Assembly: GCF_023374055.1 (NCBI RefSeq)
Contig: NZ_JAMBEP010000001.1
Span: forward strand, 62,001-126,000
DNA length: 64,000 bases
DNA from: Luteimonas galliterrae
GTDB lineage: Bacteria > Pseudomonadota > Gammaproteobacteria > Xanthomonadales > Xanthomonadaceae
Direction: 5' to 3'
The translations under genes were made by a program, and so were the position numbers. Positions 35,053 through 41,823 of this stretch are shown here, piece after piece. The notes under the pieces were generated by a model that made no database searches, was not told where the DNA came from, and saw only the letters and a program-made list of their open reading frames with translations. The number at the start of each line of letters is the position of its first letter. Positions within the stretch are counted from its first letter, which is position 1.

Positions 35053-37095
35053 TCAGGGATCGCGAACGACGCGGAAACCGACATCGTCGTAGCCGCGACC
35101 AGGATCCAGCGGCCGCGCGCCTGCGCCGCCGCGCCACGAAGACCCCTGCGCGATCCGCTTGCGGCAGCCCTGGCTGCAATCGGACAGCCATTCCGACACG
35201 GCTTTGCCGCTGCCGGCGGCGAATTGCGCCGCCTCGGCGGCGCTGGGCAGCCGATAGCGGCGGCCGTTGCGTTCGCTCAGCCAGCGCAGGTAGGCCTGCG
35301 CGTCGTTCCAGGACACGCAGACGACGGCTTGTCCGTCGTCCTGTGCGAAGCCGGGAGTTTTCCAGTCGCGCGGCGCCAGCACGCGCAGCAGCGAAGCGCG
35401 TTCGCGGCACAGCGCCGGCGGGCGGCCGGTGGCGGCCGCGAAGCGCGCGTAGTCGCCCCGCGAAACTTCGTTGCGGGCCACGGCGACGATGTGCCCGCCG
35501 CTGTGCATGAAGATCAGGCCGGCGACGTCGTCCGGCGCGCGGTCGCCGGTCTGCCCGACGTCGCGCGCGCGCTTCATCAGCGCGGCTGCGGCGGTCTTGT
35601 CGTCCATCAGCTCCGCGGCCACGGTCGCGGTCCGGATGGCGCCGTTGCGATCCAGCCGTTTGGCGGCGGCATCGACGCCCGCGCCCAGCGCCTTGGCCAC
35701 GGCGGCTTGCATGCGTTTCAGCGCCGGCGAGTCGGCCCTGCGCGTTTCGCGGGCGATCCGCTCTGCGCGCGAGACGTATTCGCGCACGCGCTCGTAGCCT
35801 CCGTCCTTCAGCCGCTGCTCGACTTGCACGGTCATCGCATCGATCAAGCCGTCGACCGTGCCCGGCAGCCGCGCGTGCGCGGGATCGGCGCGCCATGCCG
35901 CGAGCACGCTGTCGTAGGCGTTGCCGCCCTTGGGTGCGATCAGGTTGCGCGCGCGGGTCTGTTGTTCGGCGGCGATCATCCAAGGCTCCGCCGGCGACTC
36001 CGGCGGCGGCCGCAGCATGGCGCTGGTCAGGTCGGCCTGGGGCGCGGGAGCGGCCGGCGTCGGCGCTTGCGCCGCCGGCGGCGCGACTGCGGCGGTGGCC
36101 TCGGCCGGCGCCGGACTGCGGTTGTAGTGGCGCAACCCGACACCGAGCAGCAGCGCCGCCGCCAGTCCGGCCGCGATCCACACGCCGAGCGGCGCATGCC
36201 GCATCCGCGACACGCCGTCGCCGATGCGCTGGGCGAAGGCGAAGCCGGCGGACTGGCGTTTGCGGTCTATGCGTTGCAGCGCGTCCAGCATCTGCTGCGC
36301 GCTGCGGTAGCGCGCGCCGGGCGATTTGGCCATGGCCTTGTCGATCAGGCGCTGCCAGTGGCGCTTTTCGCGGGGCAGGCGCGGGATCGGATCCTGCACA
36401 TGCTGCATCGCCATCGCCAAAGCGTCGCCGGCGACGTAAGGCAGCCGGCCGGCCAGCATTTCGAAGGCCAGCACGCCGAGGCTGTACAGGTCGGCGCGAT
36501 GGTCCACGTTTTCGCCGCGCGCCTGTTCGGGCGCCATGTAGGCGGTGCTGCCCACCGCCAGCCCCGCCATGGTCACGCGCGGACTGTAGCCGTGGCGCAG
36601 GGCGATGCCGAAATCGGCCAACAGCGGCCGGTCGGCTTCGTCGAACAGCACGTTTTCGGCTTTCACGTCGCGATGGATCACGCCGCGCGCATGCGCGTAG
36701 TCGAGTGCGGACAGCAGCGCGCGCAGGATCGCGATCACGCGCGGCTCGTTCTGGGTGAGGTTCAGCTGCCCCAGATGGCCGCGCGACAAATGCGGCATGG
36801 CGTAGTAGGGCAGGCCGTCGCGCGTGCGGCCGACTTCGAAGATGCCGACGATGTGGGGATGCTCAAGCCGGGCGATCGTACGCACTTCGTTCTCGAAGCG
36901 GCGGCGGCTGACCTCGTCGGCCAGCGCCTCGGGCAGCATCACCTTGACCGCCACCTCGCGGCCGAGCGAGGCCTGCACGGCCAGGTACACGGTGGACATG
37001 CCGCCGTGGCCGATCGCTTGCAATACCGTGTAACCGGCGATGTCCGGCAACGGCTCGGCGCTTTCCTGCGCCTGTTCAGGCTGTTCGCTGGACAT
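35053..37095 (-). CDS. Ser/Thr protein kinase fused to a formylglycine-generating-enzyme-like domain
   Basis: This 680-residue protein has an N-terminal Hanks-type kinase (residues ~20-285) with the glycine loop IGHGGMSTVY, lysine in VAVKVML, HRDVKAENVLF, DFG and MAPEQARG. It is therefore likely active. A membrane helix lies at ~325-345, then a Pro/Ala-rich stretch and a ~120-residue helical region. The C-terminal ~150 residues are FGE/SUMF1-like (ARNEVSRGDYARFAAATG, VVCVSWNDAQAYLRWLSER, WRGGAGARP, DDVGFRVVRDP). That domain lies outside the cytoplasm if the helix spans the membrane, so it probably senses rather than modifies. GGGGGGAA precedes the ATG. Confidence 0.9.
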   Translation of the reverse strand: MSSEQPEQAQESAEPLPDIAGYTVLQAIGHGGMSTVYLAVQASLGREVAVKVMLPEALADEVSRRRFENEVRTIARLEHPHIVGIFEVGRTRDGLPYYAMPHLSRGHLGQLNLTQNEPRVIAILRALLSALDYAHARGVIHRDVKAENVLFDEADRPLLADFGIALRHGYSPRVTMAGLAVGSTAYMAPEQARGENVDHRADLYSLGVLAFEMLAGRLPYVAGDALAMAMQHVQDPIPRLPREKRHWQRLIDKAMAKSPGARYRSAQQMLDALQRIDRKRQSAGFAFAQRIGDGVSRMRHAPLGVWIAAGLAAALLLGVGLRHYNRSPAPAEATAAVAPPAAQAPTPAAPAPQADLTSAMLRPPPESPAEPWMIAAEQQTRARNLIAPKGGNAYDSVLAAWRADPAHARLPGTVDGLIDAMTVQVEQRLKDGGYERVREYVSRAERIARETRRADSPALKRMQAAVAKALGAGVDAAAKRLDRNGAIRTATVAAELMDDKTAAAALMKRARDVGQTGDRAPDDVAGLIFMHSGGHIVAVARNEVSRGDYARFAAATGRPPALCRERASLLRVLAPRDWKTPGFAQDDGQAVVCVSWNDAQAYLRWLSERNGRRYRLPSAAEAAQFAAGSGKAVSEWLSDCSQGCRKRIAQGSSWRGGAGARPLDPGRGYDDVGFRVVRDP

Positions 37096-37310
37096 GGTTC
37101 CCCCCGGATCCGACGCCAGCATAGCGCCCGGATGCGGCCTCGGGCGACCGTTCGCGGCCCCCGTTCCGACCGTACGCACCCTTGGTCCGGCGGGCTGAGT
37201 CGTTCAGGAGTCGGATCCGGCGATCAAGGCATGCGCTGGAGAAGATGGCAATTCGCACGGAAAGGACCGGATACTTCGGCTGGGGCGGCAAGGCACTTTA
37301 AGGGGAAAGC

Positions 37311-39390: not shown

Positions 39391-40269
39391 CTACACCAGC
39401 AACAACGAGGACATCTTGCGGCGATAGCGGCCGACGAGGTCTTCGTCGTCGATGACGCGGAACGCATCGATCAGCGCCTTTTTGGGCAAACCTTCTTCGT
39501 AGGCGCGGTCGCGCCGCAGCATCTCGAGGAATTGTTCCAGTCCGGCTTCGGATTGCCCGCCCACGATGCGATGCACGCCGAGCAGGTGGCGCGCGCGCAG
39601 ATCGTCCGGATTGCTGGCCACGGCCGTTTCCAATACTTCCGGTGCGGGTGCGTCTTTCAGCAATGATGCGAAACCCAATCGTGCACGCGCTTTGACCGCG
39701 CGGTCGTCGGTGGACAGGTTGGCGGGCAGGGCGTCGAGCAGTTGTTCGGCTTCGTGCGCGCCGCCGGTCTGCAGCAGCGCCAGCGCCAGATCGAGTTTCA
39801 GTTCGGCCTTGTCGGGCTCGGCTTCGATCGCCTTGCGCAGGCGCATGACTTCGGCATGAGGGTCGACCGGCGCGGCGGTTTCGGCCGGCGCTTCGGGCGC
39901 ATCGTTCGCGGCGGCGGGTTCGATGCCGTGATGCTTGAGGAATTCGCGCACCTGGCCTTCCGGCAACGCGCCCTGGAAGGCGTCGACCAGCTTGCCGTCC
40001 TTCACCAGGAACACGGTCGGGATCGAGCGGATCTGGAAGGCCGCGGCGATCTGCTGTTCCTGCTCGGTGTCGACTTTGGCCAGCACGAAGCCGCCGTTGA
40101 AGTCGGCGGCCAGCTTTTCCAGGATCGGGCCCAGCGTCTTGCACGGCCCGCACCAATCGGCCCAGAAATCCACCAGCACGGGGGTCTGCAGGGATTTCTG
40201 CAGGACATCGGCCTCGAAGCGTTCGGTGGTGACATCGAAGACATGCGGTTTGGCGACAGCGGCGGACAT
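39391..40269 (-). CDS. cnoX: Thioredoxin-TPR co-chaperone, CnoX/YbbN type
   Basis: This 292-residue protein has an N-terminal thioredoxin domain (~1-115, active site WCGPCK with cysteines 40 and 43) followed by a helical TPR-like region (~135-285). E. coli CnoX is a holdase that hands stressed proteins to GroEL and DnaK and lacks the first cysteine. Here both cysteines are present, as in the redox-active subgroup. The TAG stop is formed by a GTAG repeat head. The start gives a normal thioredoxin N-terminus. It is divergent from the XRE regulator, with 118 bases between. Confidence 0.9.
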
Positions 40270-40343
40270 GGGGAATCCCGTAAGGCGTTCAGCCGGAGAT
40301 TGTGCCAGCCGGGCCGGAATCCAAGCGGATGTAAAAAGTACCT

Positions 40344-40387
40344 TACATTTCTTGCTGAAATGTATTTCTTATGTTACATATTGTCAT
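40344..40387 (+). promoter_or_regulatory. Promoter and operator of the XRE-DUF998 unit (likely leaderless)
   Basis: A -35-like TTGCTG (40352-40357) and a -10-like TACATA (40375-40380) are separated by exactly 17 bases. Transcription would begin about seven bases later, at or next to the GTG start codon, which has no ribosome site. A perfect inverted repeat TACATTTC-n5-GAAATGTA (40344-40364) covers the -35, suggesting repression by the encoded regulator. The tract is strikingly AT-rich for this chromosome. Confidence 0.55.
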
Positions 40388-40615
40388 GTGAAGAATACAT
40401 TGGTCCGGACTCCCATCGGCAACGACATTCGCCGCCTGCGTTTCGAACACGGCGAGATGACGCAGGAAGCGCTGGCGCAGGCCTGCGGCGTGACCCGCCA
40501 GACCATCATCGCGCTGGAGGCGGGTAGGTACGCGCCTTCGCTGGCGCTGGCGTTCCGGATCGCGCGCGCGTTCGGCGTCGGCGTGGAAGACGTCTTCCGT
40601 TGGGAGCAGGCATGA
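40388..40615 (+). CDS. Small XRE-family (Cro/CI-like) transcriptional regulator
   Basis: This 75-residue protein is a single helix-turn-helix: [40 protein letters not shown], then [20 protein letters not shown]. It belongs to the compact XRE type (YozG-like) that is often paired with a small membrane protein. The start is GTG at 40388, inside an AT-rich promoter. It overlaps the DUF998 gene by ATGA and so is co-translated with it. Likely target: its own promoter, through the inverted repeat at 40344. That is inference. Confidence 0.85.
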
Positions 40616-41211
40616 AGCAGGTCACGCCGCACGCGGGCCTGTTGGCCGCGGTGTTGTCCATCGGCGCGGCGTCGATGTTCGCCGCCGGATGGGAAGACTA
40701 TTCGCACGCCGCGCATCCGCTCGGGTTGTTGGGCGCATACGGCACGCCGCATGCGTTGGCTTTCAACCTGTACGGATTCGTGGTGCCCGGATTGCTGGCG
40801 GCGTGGCTGGGCTGGCGCCTGCGCGACGCCATGCAGGAGCGCGGCTGGATGGCGCGGATCGGCGCCTGGCTGGTGCTTCTATCGGCGTTGGCCTTCGCTG
40901 CGCAGGGCATGGCGAGGTTGGATCCGCAGGATCTCGAAGCGCTTTCCGGCCGCCTGCATGCCGCGAGTTGGATGCTGTGGTGGATCGCCTTCGTTCCGGG
41001 GGCGCTGTTGCTGGCATTTGGGGCGGGACCGCATGCGGGCCGGGGCTTGCTCGGCGTAGTCAGTGCCGCGGCGGCGATTGCGGTGCTGGCGCTCACGATC
41101 TTCGCCCCGGCGTGGATGCCGATCGCGATCGCGCATCGCATCGCTTTCGTTTGCTGGTTCGGCTGGCTGACTTTTGCCGGCTACGCCCTTGCCGCGAAGC
41201 CACGGGCATAG
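40612..41211 (+). CDS. DUF998-family integral membrane protein
   Basis: This 199-residue protein has six predicted membrane helices and resembles DUF998. The first helix ([20 protein letters not shown]) is followed by [20 protein letters not shown] and a run of helices ending near residue 195. The start ATG overlaps the stop of the XRE gene and has GGGAG six bases upstream. The function of DUF998 is unknown. The XRE-membrane protein pairing suggests a membrane component controlled by, or controlling, the regulator. Confidence 0.75.
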
Positions 41212-41232
41212 CGCCTTGTGGAACCGGCCCTT

Positions 41233-41309
41233 GTAGGAGCGGCTTCAGCCGCGAGCTCTTGATCCTGTCGTCATCGGCCAGAAAAGCTCGCGGCTGAAGC
41301 CGCTCCTAC
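41233..41309. repeat. Inverted REP pair
   Basis: GTAGGAGCGGCTTCAGCCGC at 41233 faces its complement ending in CTAC at 41309. The arms are perfect over ~28 bases. It lies between the convergent ends of the DUF998 and SemiSWEET genes. Confidence 0.85.
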
Positions 41310-41337
41310 AACGCCTCGCCGCTCCCGCAGAAAAAAG

Positions 41338-41601
41338 TCATCCGGCCGCGCGCTTGTTGCGCAGCAGGACGATCAGGATGGCCGACGCCAGTACGAACGT
41401 GATCACGTTCGATACGATCATCGGCCATGAGCCCAACGACACGCCGTATGCGAACCAGAACGCTACTCCGACGGTGAACACCGCATACATCGCCAGCGAG
41501 ATGCCGCGCGTGTCGCGGCTGCGAATCGTCTTGATCGCCTGCGGCACGAAGGAGAGCGTGGTCAGCGTGGCGGCGACGTAGCCGAGCCATTCCGGATTCA
41601 T
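41338..41601 (-). CDS. SemiSWEET-type sugar transporter (PQ-loop protein)
   Basis: This 87-residue protein has three membrane helices, the single triple-helix unit that dimerises to form a bacterial SemiSWEET. The PQ motif is in helix 1 (TTLSFVPQAIKTIRSR). RGISLAMYAVFTVGVAFWFAY (helix 2) carries the usual residues, and a final helix runs to the end. GGAGG lies ten bases before the ATG. SemiSWEETs move small sugars down their gradient; the substrate is not predictable. It is flanked by REP spacers on both sides. Confidence 0.9.
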   Translation of the reverse strand: MNPEWLGYVAATLTTLSFVPQAIKTIRSRDTRGISLAMYAVFTVGVAFWFAYGVSLGSWPMIVSNVITFVLASAILIVLLRNKRAAG

Positions 41602-41643: not shown

Positions 41644-41823
41644 GTGGGACGGCTTTATGGGAGCGGCTTCAGCGGGGTGCTCTTGATCTTTTAGCTGTCA
41701 TCCCGAGCGAAGCGAGGGATCTGCTGTCCCATGCCGACATGGAAGCAGATCCCTCGCTTCGCTCGGGATGGCAGCTGAAAAAGGCCCGCGGCCGAAGCCG
41801 CTCCTACAAAAAGCCGCTCCTAG
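41644..41823. repeat. Nested inverted repeats: REPs around an 80-base hairpin
   Basis: Degenerate REPs at 41644-41680 and 41783-41823 surround a nearly perfect hairpin at about 41698-41777. The hairpin arms read CATCCCGAGCGAAGCGAGGG then ATCTGCT, and the inverted copy. It lies in the spacer between the SemiSWEET and amidohydrolase genes, which has no gene. Confidence 0.75.

Follow-up and report, generated by a model that had tools for sequence, protein, structure and literature searches.

The XRE-DUF998 module of Luteimonas galliterrae is most likely, as judged by comparison with related loci, a conserved operon in shortened form. The best overall explanation, to which we give a probability of about three in four, is that its small XRE regulator acts as an autorepressor on a set of palindromic boxes in an operon that has been trimmed of ORF1, a DUF2178-like membrane gene. 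In this model, a CylR2-like XRE dimer would bind two 20-bp boxes, and probably a third, which enclose the promoter, and would thereby repress its own operon; in relatives a membrane signal would probably relieve that repression through the DUF2178-like protein, the DUF998 protein or both. In the lineage of the window, ~0.63 kb with the DUF2178-like gene would have been lost, leaving the end of box 3 joined to the start of the XRE gene, and expression would probably be lower, or start elsewhere, because the -35, the -10 and the box spacing have drifted while the boxes are near-perfect. The window, i.e. the whole 64,000-nucleotide stretch of DNA that was analysed, carries the following features at this locus.

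40388-40615, + strand: XRE regulator, CylR2-like, given here from GTG 40388 (Pfam HTH_3, 52.1 bits against a cut-off of 23, 6.6e-14)
40612-41211, + strand: DUF998 membrane protein of 199 residues, starting with ATG (PF06197, 36.8 bits against a cut-off of 30)
39391-40269, - strand: divergent thioredoxin-TPR gene, trx (Thioredoxin 96 bits, TPR_20 94.8 bits)
40329-40348: putative operator box 1, ATGTAAAAAGTACCTTACAT, 12/12 to ATGTAA-N8-TTACAT, at a place conserved in relatives
40360-40379: putative operator box 2, ATGTATTTCTTATGTTACAT, 11/12, 31 bp from box 1 against the usual 32 bp
40381-40400: probable third box, TTGTCATGTGAAGAATACAT, 10/12 with both half-sites, 21 bp from box 2
40342-40368, + strand: place of the conserved promoter, CTTACA (40342-40347)-N15-TATTTC (40363-40368), in relatives TTGACA-N16-TAAnnT
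40344-40364: 8-5-8 inverted repeat, TACATTTC-TTGCT-GAAATGTA, the right half of box 1 facing the left half of box 2

A preliminary description of this DNA had proposed a compact, AT-rich and self-operated two-gene switch, and what it said of the genes themselves holds: the XRE reading frame from GTG 40388 is present with its HTH_3 match, its end overlaps ATG 40612 of the DUF998 gene in an ATGA coupling, and the DUF998 product, besides scoring above the family cut-off, has six long, membrane-length helices in its AlphaFold2 model (pLDDT 95.3). The two genes are each single-copy in the 3.6-Mb genome, and trx is the usual neighbour of the locus, adjoining the operon in most relatives. The AT-richness is real for positions 40325-40401 (30% GC, the sole place that AT-rich at 77 bp within the window) but not for the XRE and DUF998 genes, at 66% and 68% GC in a window of 67%, so that it is confined to the control region; a foreign AT-rich island is ruled out by the same gene values. 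Around the locus, a REP-like element, GTAGGAGCGGCTTCAGCCGCGA, occurs in 19 copies within 15096-60678 (e.g. 41231-41311) when up to 3 mismatches are allowed, against 0.01 expected from shuffles; most copies form inverted pairs, and such pairs flank the trx-XRE-DUF998 locus on both sides. A second hairpin type lies 3' of DUF998 at 41689-41780 (37-nt arms, 95% complementary, 18 nt between), and 35053-37179 on the - strand encodes a fusion of a Ser/Thr protein kinase and an FGE-sulfatase-type domain.

Putative operator boxes, promoter and regulator gene

Scanning with ATGTAA-N8-TTACAT located boxes 5' of the operon's first gene in most XRE loci. Close homologues of the XRE (E 2e-25 or better) occupy 85 places, of which 82 were analysed (G165, G203 and G227 were left out); a box pair scoring at least 19/24 was found in 72 of these 82 loci, that of the window included, and in 67 of those 72 the two boxes start 32 bp from each other, whereas the ten loci without a pair include the distant homologues L148, L150 and L154-L156. 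The aligned boxes of the relatives read ATGTAAnnnnnnnTTGACAT - 12 bp - ATGTAAnnTnnnnnTTACAT, and the conserved composite thus comprises two 20-bp boxes, 32 bp apart, that carry a -35 TTGACA and a -10 TAAnnT. Among the 68 relatives defined by a box pair at 32 bp, which by that definition leaves out L104 (34 bp) and L110 (33 bp, TTTACA), TTGACA is found in 68/68, TAAnnT lies 16 bp past it, and A2 and T6 of the -10 are kept in 64/68. The control region of the relatives thus reads as a promoter enclosed by putative operators. There is probably also a third, weaker copy of the operator: 21 bp past box 2, the 68 relatives score a mean of 8.2/12, against 3.0 (sd 0.24) at 50 offsets further downstream, with both strict half-sites present in 10/68 and one in 42/68, and this box coincides in part with the region of the first gene's ribosome-binding site.

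The window has an altered form of this composite. Box 1 still has the full palindromic consensus and is the only 0-mismatch match in the whole 3.6-Mb genome, in which box 2 is the only 1-mismatch match; the second box starts 31 bp after the first, and the two promoter hexamers differ from those of the relatives, the place of the conserved promoter retaining 4+3 of 12 consensus positions.

Self-operation by the XRE, also part of the preliminary description, is supported because the composite is found only near close homologues of the XRE gene. When the composite pattern was searched in 297 family genomes, allowing up to 3 mismatches, it matched in 70, at one place each, which in every case is no more than 2.5 kb from a close XRE homologue; the pattern was absent from every other family genome of the 297, and a reversed-pattern control gave 0 matches in the same set. 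Close XRE homologues occur in 84 genomes, 14 of which, including that of the window, fail the composite pattern. Comparison thus supports autorepression by the XRE as a predicted activity. In the 95-row XRE alignment, which includes places present twice, every position of the stretch R37 Q38 T39 I40 I41 A42 L43 E44 agrees with the window in 91 or more of the rows; the analogy to HTH_3 proteins makes it the probable recognition helix, and its near-invariance parallels the conserved boxes. One genome, G195, in which the search for the composite operator gave no match, carries two diverged XRE copies (L130 and L155, 79% and 64% identical to that of the window over the matched part).

The longer operon of relatives and its missing gene

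The usual order in relatives is trx on the opposite strand, the control region, ORF1, XRE and DUF998. In some loci another membrane gene is present, or an alpha/beta hydrolase (BAAT_C, 71.6 bits) follows the XRE, and some have no DUF998 near the XRE. In Thermomonas-type genomes the hydrolase stands between XRE and DUF998 (L010:566-1471, L012:557-1477, L035:2009-2929) and has an apparent N-terminal membrane helix. The ORF1 alignment, of 47 members, has invariant E70, A73, D137-E138-R139-D140 and R209, and 20 of the 47 have a DUF2178 match with an E value of 0.01 or better; the product is termed DUF2178-like only, because ORF1 of L031 has no DUF2178 match and that of L037 reaches 20.6 bits against a cut-off of 22.8. 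The DUF998 gene is more widespread than the regulator, with homologues in 224 of the 297 family genomes as opposed to 84 with a close XRE; 58 of 66 aligned DUF998 relatives match PF06197 at E 0.01 or better, and a sample of the order gave a DUF998 match in 22/151 genomes, 21 of this family and 1 of another.

Structure comparisons were made for both membrane proteins. A Z-scored fold comparison with solved structures returned generic helical matches only, with Z 10.2 for DUF998 (Ste2, rmsd 4.3, 181 aligned) and 7.4 for ORF1 (YiiP, rmsd 5.8, 129 aligned), and these likenesses are set aside, as helical bundles can attain such scores via a common arrangement. Foldseek gave a best E of 0.82 for DUF998, and searches of the PDB with DUF998 and ORF1 alignment profiles gave nothing below E 0.3. 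The adiponectin receptor 6ks0 (Foldseek E 1.9, TMq 0.47 to DUF998), which was not among the 50 Z-comparison matches listed, was not used.

The preliminary description was right about the two-gene layout, but a compact module is not the likely original state, since the sister locus L031 has one more membrane gene, placed between the operator and the XRE. In a quick thioredoxin protein tree, L031 and the window are joined as sisters (SH-aLRT 97), and relative to L031 the window lacks ~0.63 kb holding ORF1 between box 3 and the XRE start. The compact state is thus probably derived, the gene having presumably been lost rather than gained in the sister. The ORF1 space is missing from the window and nine other loci in the tree set of 94, from which 11 duplicate loci and those with fewer than 230 trx residues matched were left out. 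On this tree, where change counts give no direction between gain and loss, at least 8 changes of the ORF1 space are needed among XRE loci (the starred branches forcing 5 in the group with the XRE only), and 13 changes of XRE presence. Because the ORF1 space changes so often among loci that have the XRE, the membrane gene is not required to keep the regulator.

A related account, which we hold to be possible though clearly less probable than a working autorepressor, is that the operon is decaying after the loss of its membrane gene, with a failing promoter, and is heading to the DUF998-only state of the same-genus genomes G072 and G032, in which no close XRE adjoins DUF998. The -35, the -10 and the spacing of the window all deviate as this account would have it, the locus of G072 (L003) keeps, in our reading, only the half box TTGACAT, and XRE presence changes recurrently on the tree. 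Against decay, boxes 1 and 2 are preserved at 12/12 and 11/12, and both reading frames are intact with low dN/dS, ~0.13 for XRE and ~0.19 for DUF998 in the comparison with L031, pairwise values that do not isolate the time after ORF1 loss. Both genes look to be under selection on these values.

Inverted repeat, start codon and leader

It had also been proposed that the operator is the 8-5-8 inverted repeat and that transcription starts at the GTG codon itself. The repeat is present and perfect, as described. It is ruled out as the operator, since the conserved units are the ATGTAA-N8-TTACAT boxes and all 8 pairs are formed in 1 of 71 loci, that of the window. Across the 71 loci the same positions form 3 pairs in 3 loci, 4 in 19, 5 in 34, 6 in 13, 7 in 1 and 8 in 1, which puts 66/71 loci at 4-6 pairs. 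The repeat consists of facing box halves plus three extra pairs: TACAT/ATGTA, accounting for 5 of the 8, arises because the two boxes adjoin there. The reading of a perfect inverted repeat in a single genome can therefore pick the gap between two operators.

The -35/-10 pair with 17-base spacing can likewise be found, as TTGCTG (40352)-N17-TACATA (40375), and does put a start near 40387, but it has only 3+3 of 12 consensus matches, and two other pairs in the same stretch reach 8/12, above the 6/12 of this one. A consensus promoter scan of 40200-41400 reported a single promoter-like site, which is on the - strand, and nothing on the + strand. As for translation, the column of TTG 40400-40402 holds Met in 91 of the 95 rows of the XRE alignment. 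The XRE starts coincide in 90 of 95 rows, partly by construction, because the choice of starts was guided by the expected place and favoured ATG; the Met count of that column is free of this effect. A start at GTG 40388 would lengthen the XRE by four residues. In relatives a ribosome-binding-site-like core precedes the first gene in 47 of 71 loci (GGAG in 35/71) and none does in the other 24; the examples inspected have GGAG, then 7-8 bases, then the ATG of ORF1, and in L133, another locus that lacks ORF1, GGAG stands 8 bases before the XRE ATG. The window has GAAG at 40390-40393, 6 bases 5' of TTG 40400; this is at best a weak match and possibly the relic of a ribosome-binding site. Translation is most likely to begin at TTG 40400 and, if the start of the ancestral promoter (expected near 40375) is used, a TTG start with a leader of ~25 nt is the simplest reading; a shifted promoter and a leaderless GTG are possible.

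These results bear on the proposal as a whole, i.e. that of an intact, leaderless and self-operated two-gene switch with the 8-5-8 repeat as operator and the transcript beginning at GTG 40388, which we now regard as improbable. It draws on the perfection of the repeat, on the pair that points at GTG with 17-bp spacing, on the degraded state of the conserved promoter in the window, which a new one might replace, and on the want of a good ribosome-binding site before GTG, a trait shared at the corresponding place by the 24/71 loci mentioned above; but the full repeat recurs in no relative and the pair is outscored nearby. Its leaderless part in particular is not supported, because the conserved promoter of the relatives predicts a leader, the core is present in 47/71 loci and the start column aligns with TTG 40400.

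The divergent gene, toxin-antitoxin pairs and CylR

Box 1 begins ~60 bp from the start codon of trx, and it could thus be argued that the boxes serve mainly the divergent gene and that the XRE is a trx regulator. We find this very unlikely, as the boxes follow the XRE and not trx. Next to trx, a pair of at least 20/24 within 300 bp occurs in 62 of 72 distinct XRE loci, as opposed to 0 of 23 distinct loci that have trx and DUF998 without the XRE (best score 14); 2120 shuffled regions gave a box-pair score of at most 16. In seven of the ten low-scoring XRE loci (L098, L104, L108, L109, L117, L119 and L127), trx lies 0.7-1.8 kb away from a pair that has stayed beside the XRE operon; the remaining three, L100, L146 and L130, score 18, 17 and 17. 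An additional effect of the XRE on trx is a separate possibility. Just 5' of box 1, within 40270-40330, there is a CAAG whose letters are the commonest at their places in 37-49 of 67 relatives; it may be part of the divergent trx -35, and the XRE could therefore also touch trx.

That the XRE is the antitoxin and DUF998 the toxin of a toxin-antitoxin pair is hardly credible: the overlapping two-gene layout with an XRE protein is of that kind and the HTH is weakly similar, below cut-off, to the HipB/HigA type, but DUF998 far exceeds the XRE in its distribution, each gene is single-copy in the genome of the window, 72,556 plasmid records held no DUF998 match, and XRE-membrane pairs are excluded as candidates in the excerpts of Makarova 2009 (PMC2701414) used here. 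The distribution of the two genes appears unlike that of a mobile toxin-antitoxin pair.

The autorepressor reading, in turn, can be set beside known systems. The solved structure closest to the XRE in sequence is a PbsX-family regulator (9k3w, PDB; 1.6e-14). A structural link between DUF998 (PF06197) and Frag1/DRAM/Sfk1 has been described (PMC10584675), and in a selection for esterases one metagenomic clone with DUF998 scored (PMC6302743); the window protein, a six-helix bundle above the family cut-off, is like other members, and neither report demonstrates its function, nor did the excerpts of these two papers yield a function for the family. Our literature search on DUF2178 and XRE-membrane gene pairs returned no paper, and the literature found on DUF998, CylR and PbsX, in a search covering few subscription journals, does not describe the operon. 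As a wider and rather speculative proposal, in which we place little confidence, the Lysobacteraceae operon might be an undescribed one-component membrane-signal system with a CylR2-like repressor, a three-box operator and interchangeable membrane partners, in which DUF998 would be the sole sensor where the DUF2178-like partner has been lost, as in the window and several other branches. From a practical point of view, DUF998 and its DUF2178-like neighbour gain a candidate operator and a candidate regulator, both precisely defined and accessible to tests in E. coli, and the natural variants that either have or lack the membrane gene already amount to experiments on the signal of the repressor.

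The nearest parallel is the CylR system of the Enterococcus faecalis cytolysin operon, in which, according to the portions of PMC3709268 consulted, a small XRE repressor that binds the promoter is encoded beside a suspected membrane protein, CylR1, which is needed for induction and is thought to pass on the signal by a mechanism that is not understood. CylR2 (1utx) is, like the XRE of the window, a small single-domain protein, and the two are similar over residues 12-73 (38.1 bits, 1.1e-8). The layout of an XRE gene beside a membrane-protein gene is also shared, the partner being likened to CylR1 by description and not by sequence. After the CylR system, we infer that the XRE would repress its own operon and that a membrane protein encoded there would relieve the repression. 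Unlike in CylR, there is no toxin operon, the genes adjacent to the module being DUF998, thioredoxin-TPR, PQ-loop and amidohydrolase genes with no cytolysin or lantibiotic operon among them; the partners are DUF998 and, in relatives, the DUF2178-like protein, and two or three boxes enclose one promoter. By this analogy, the module would work like a CylR2-type autorepressor outside the cytolysin system.
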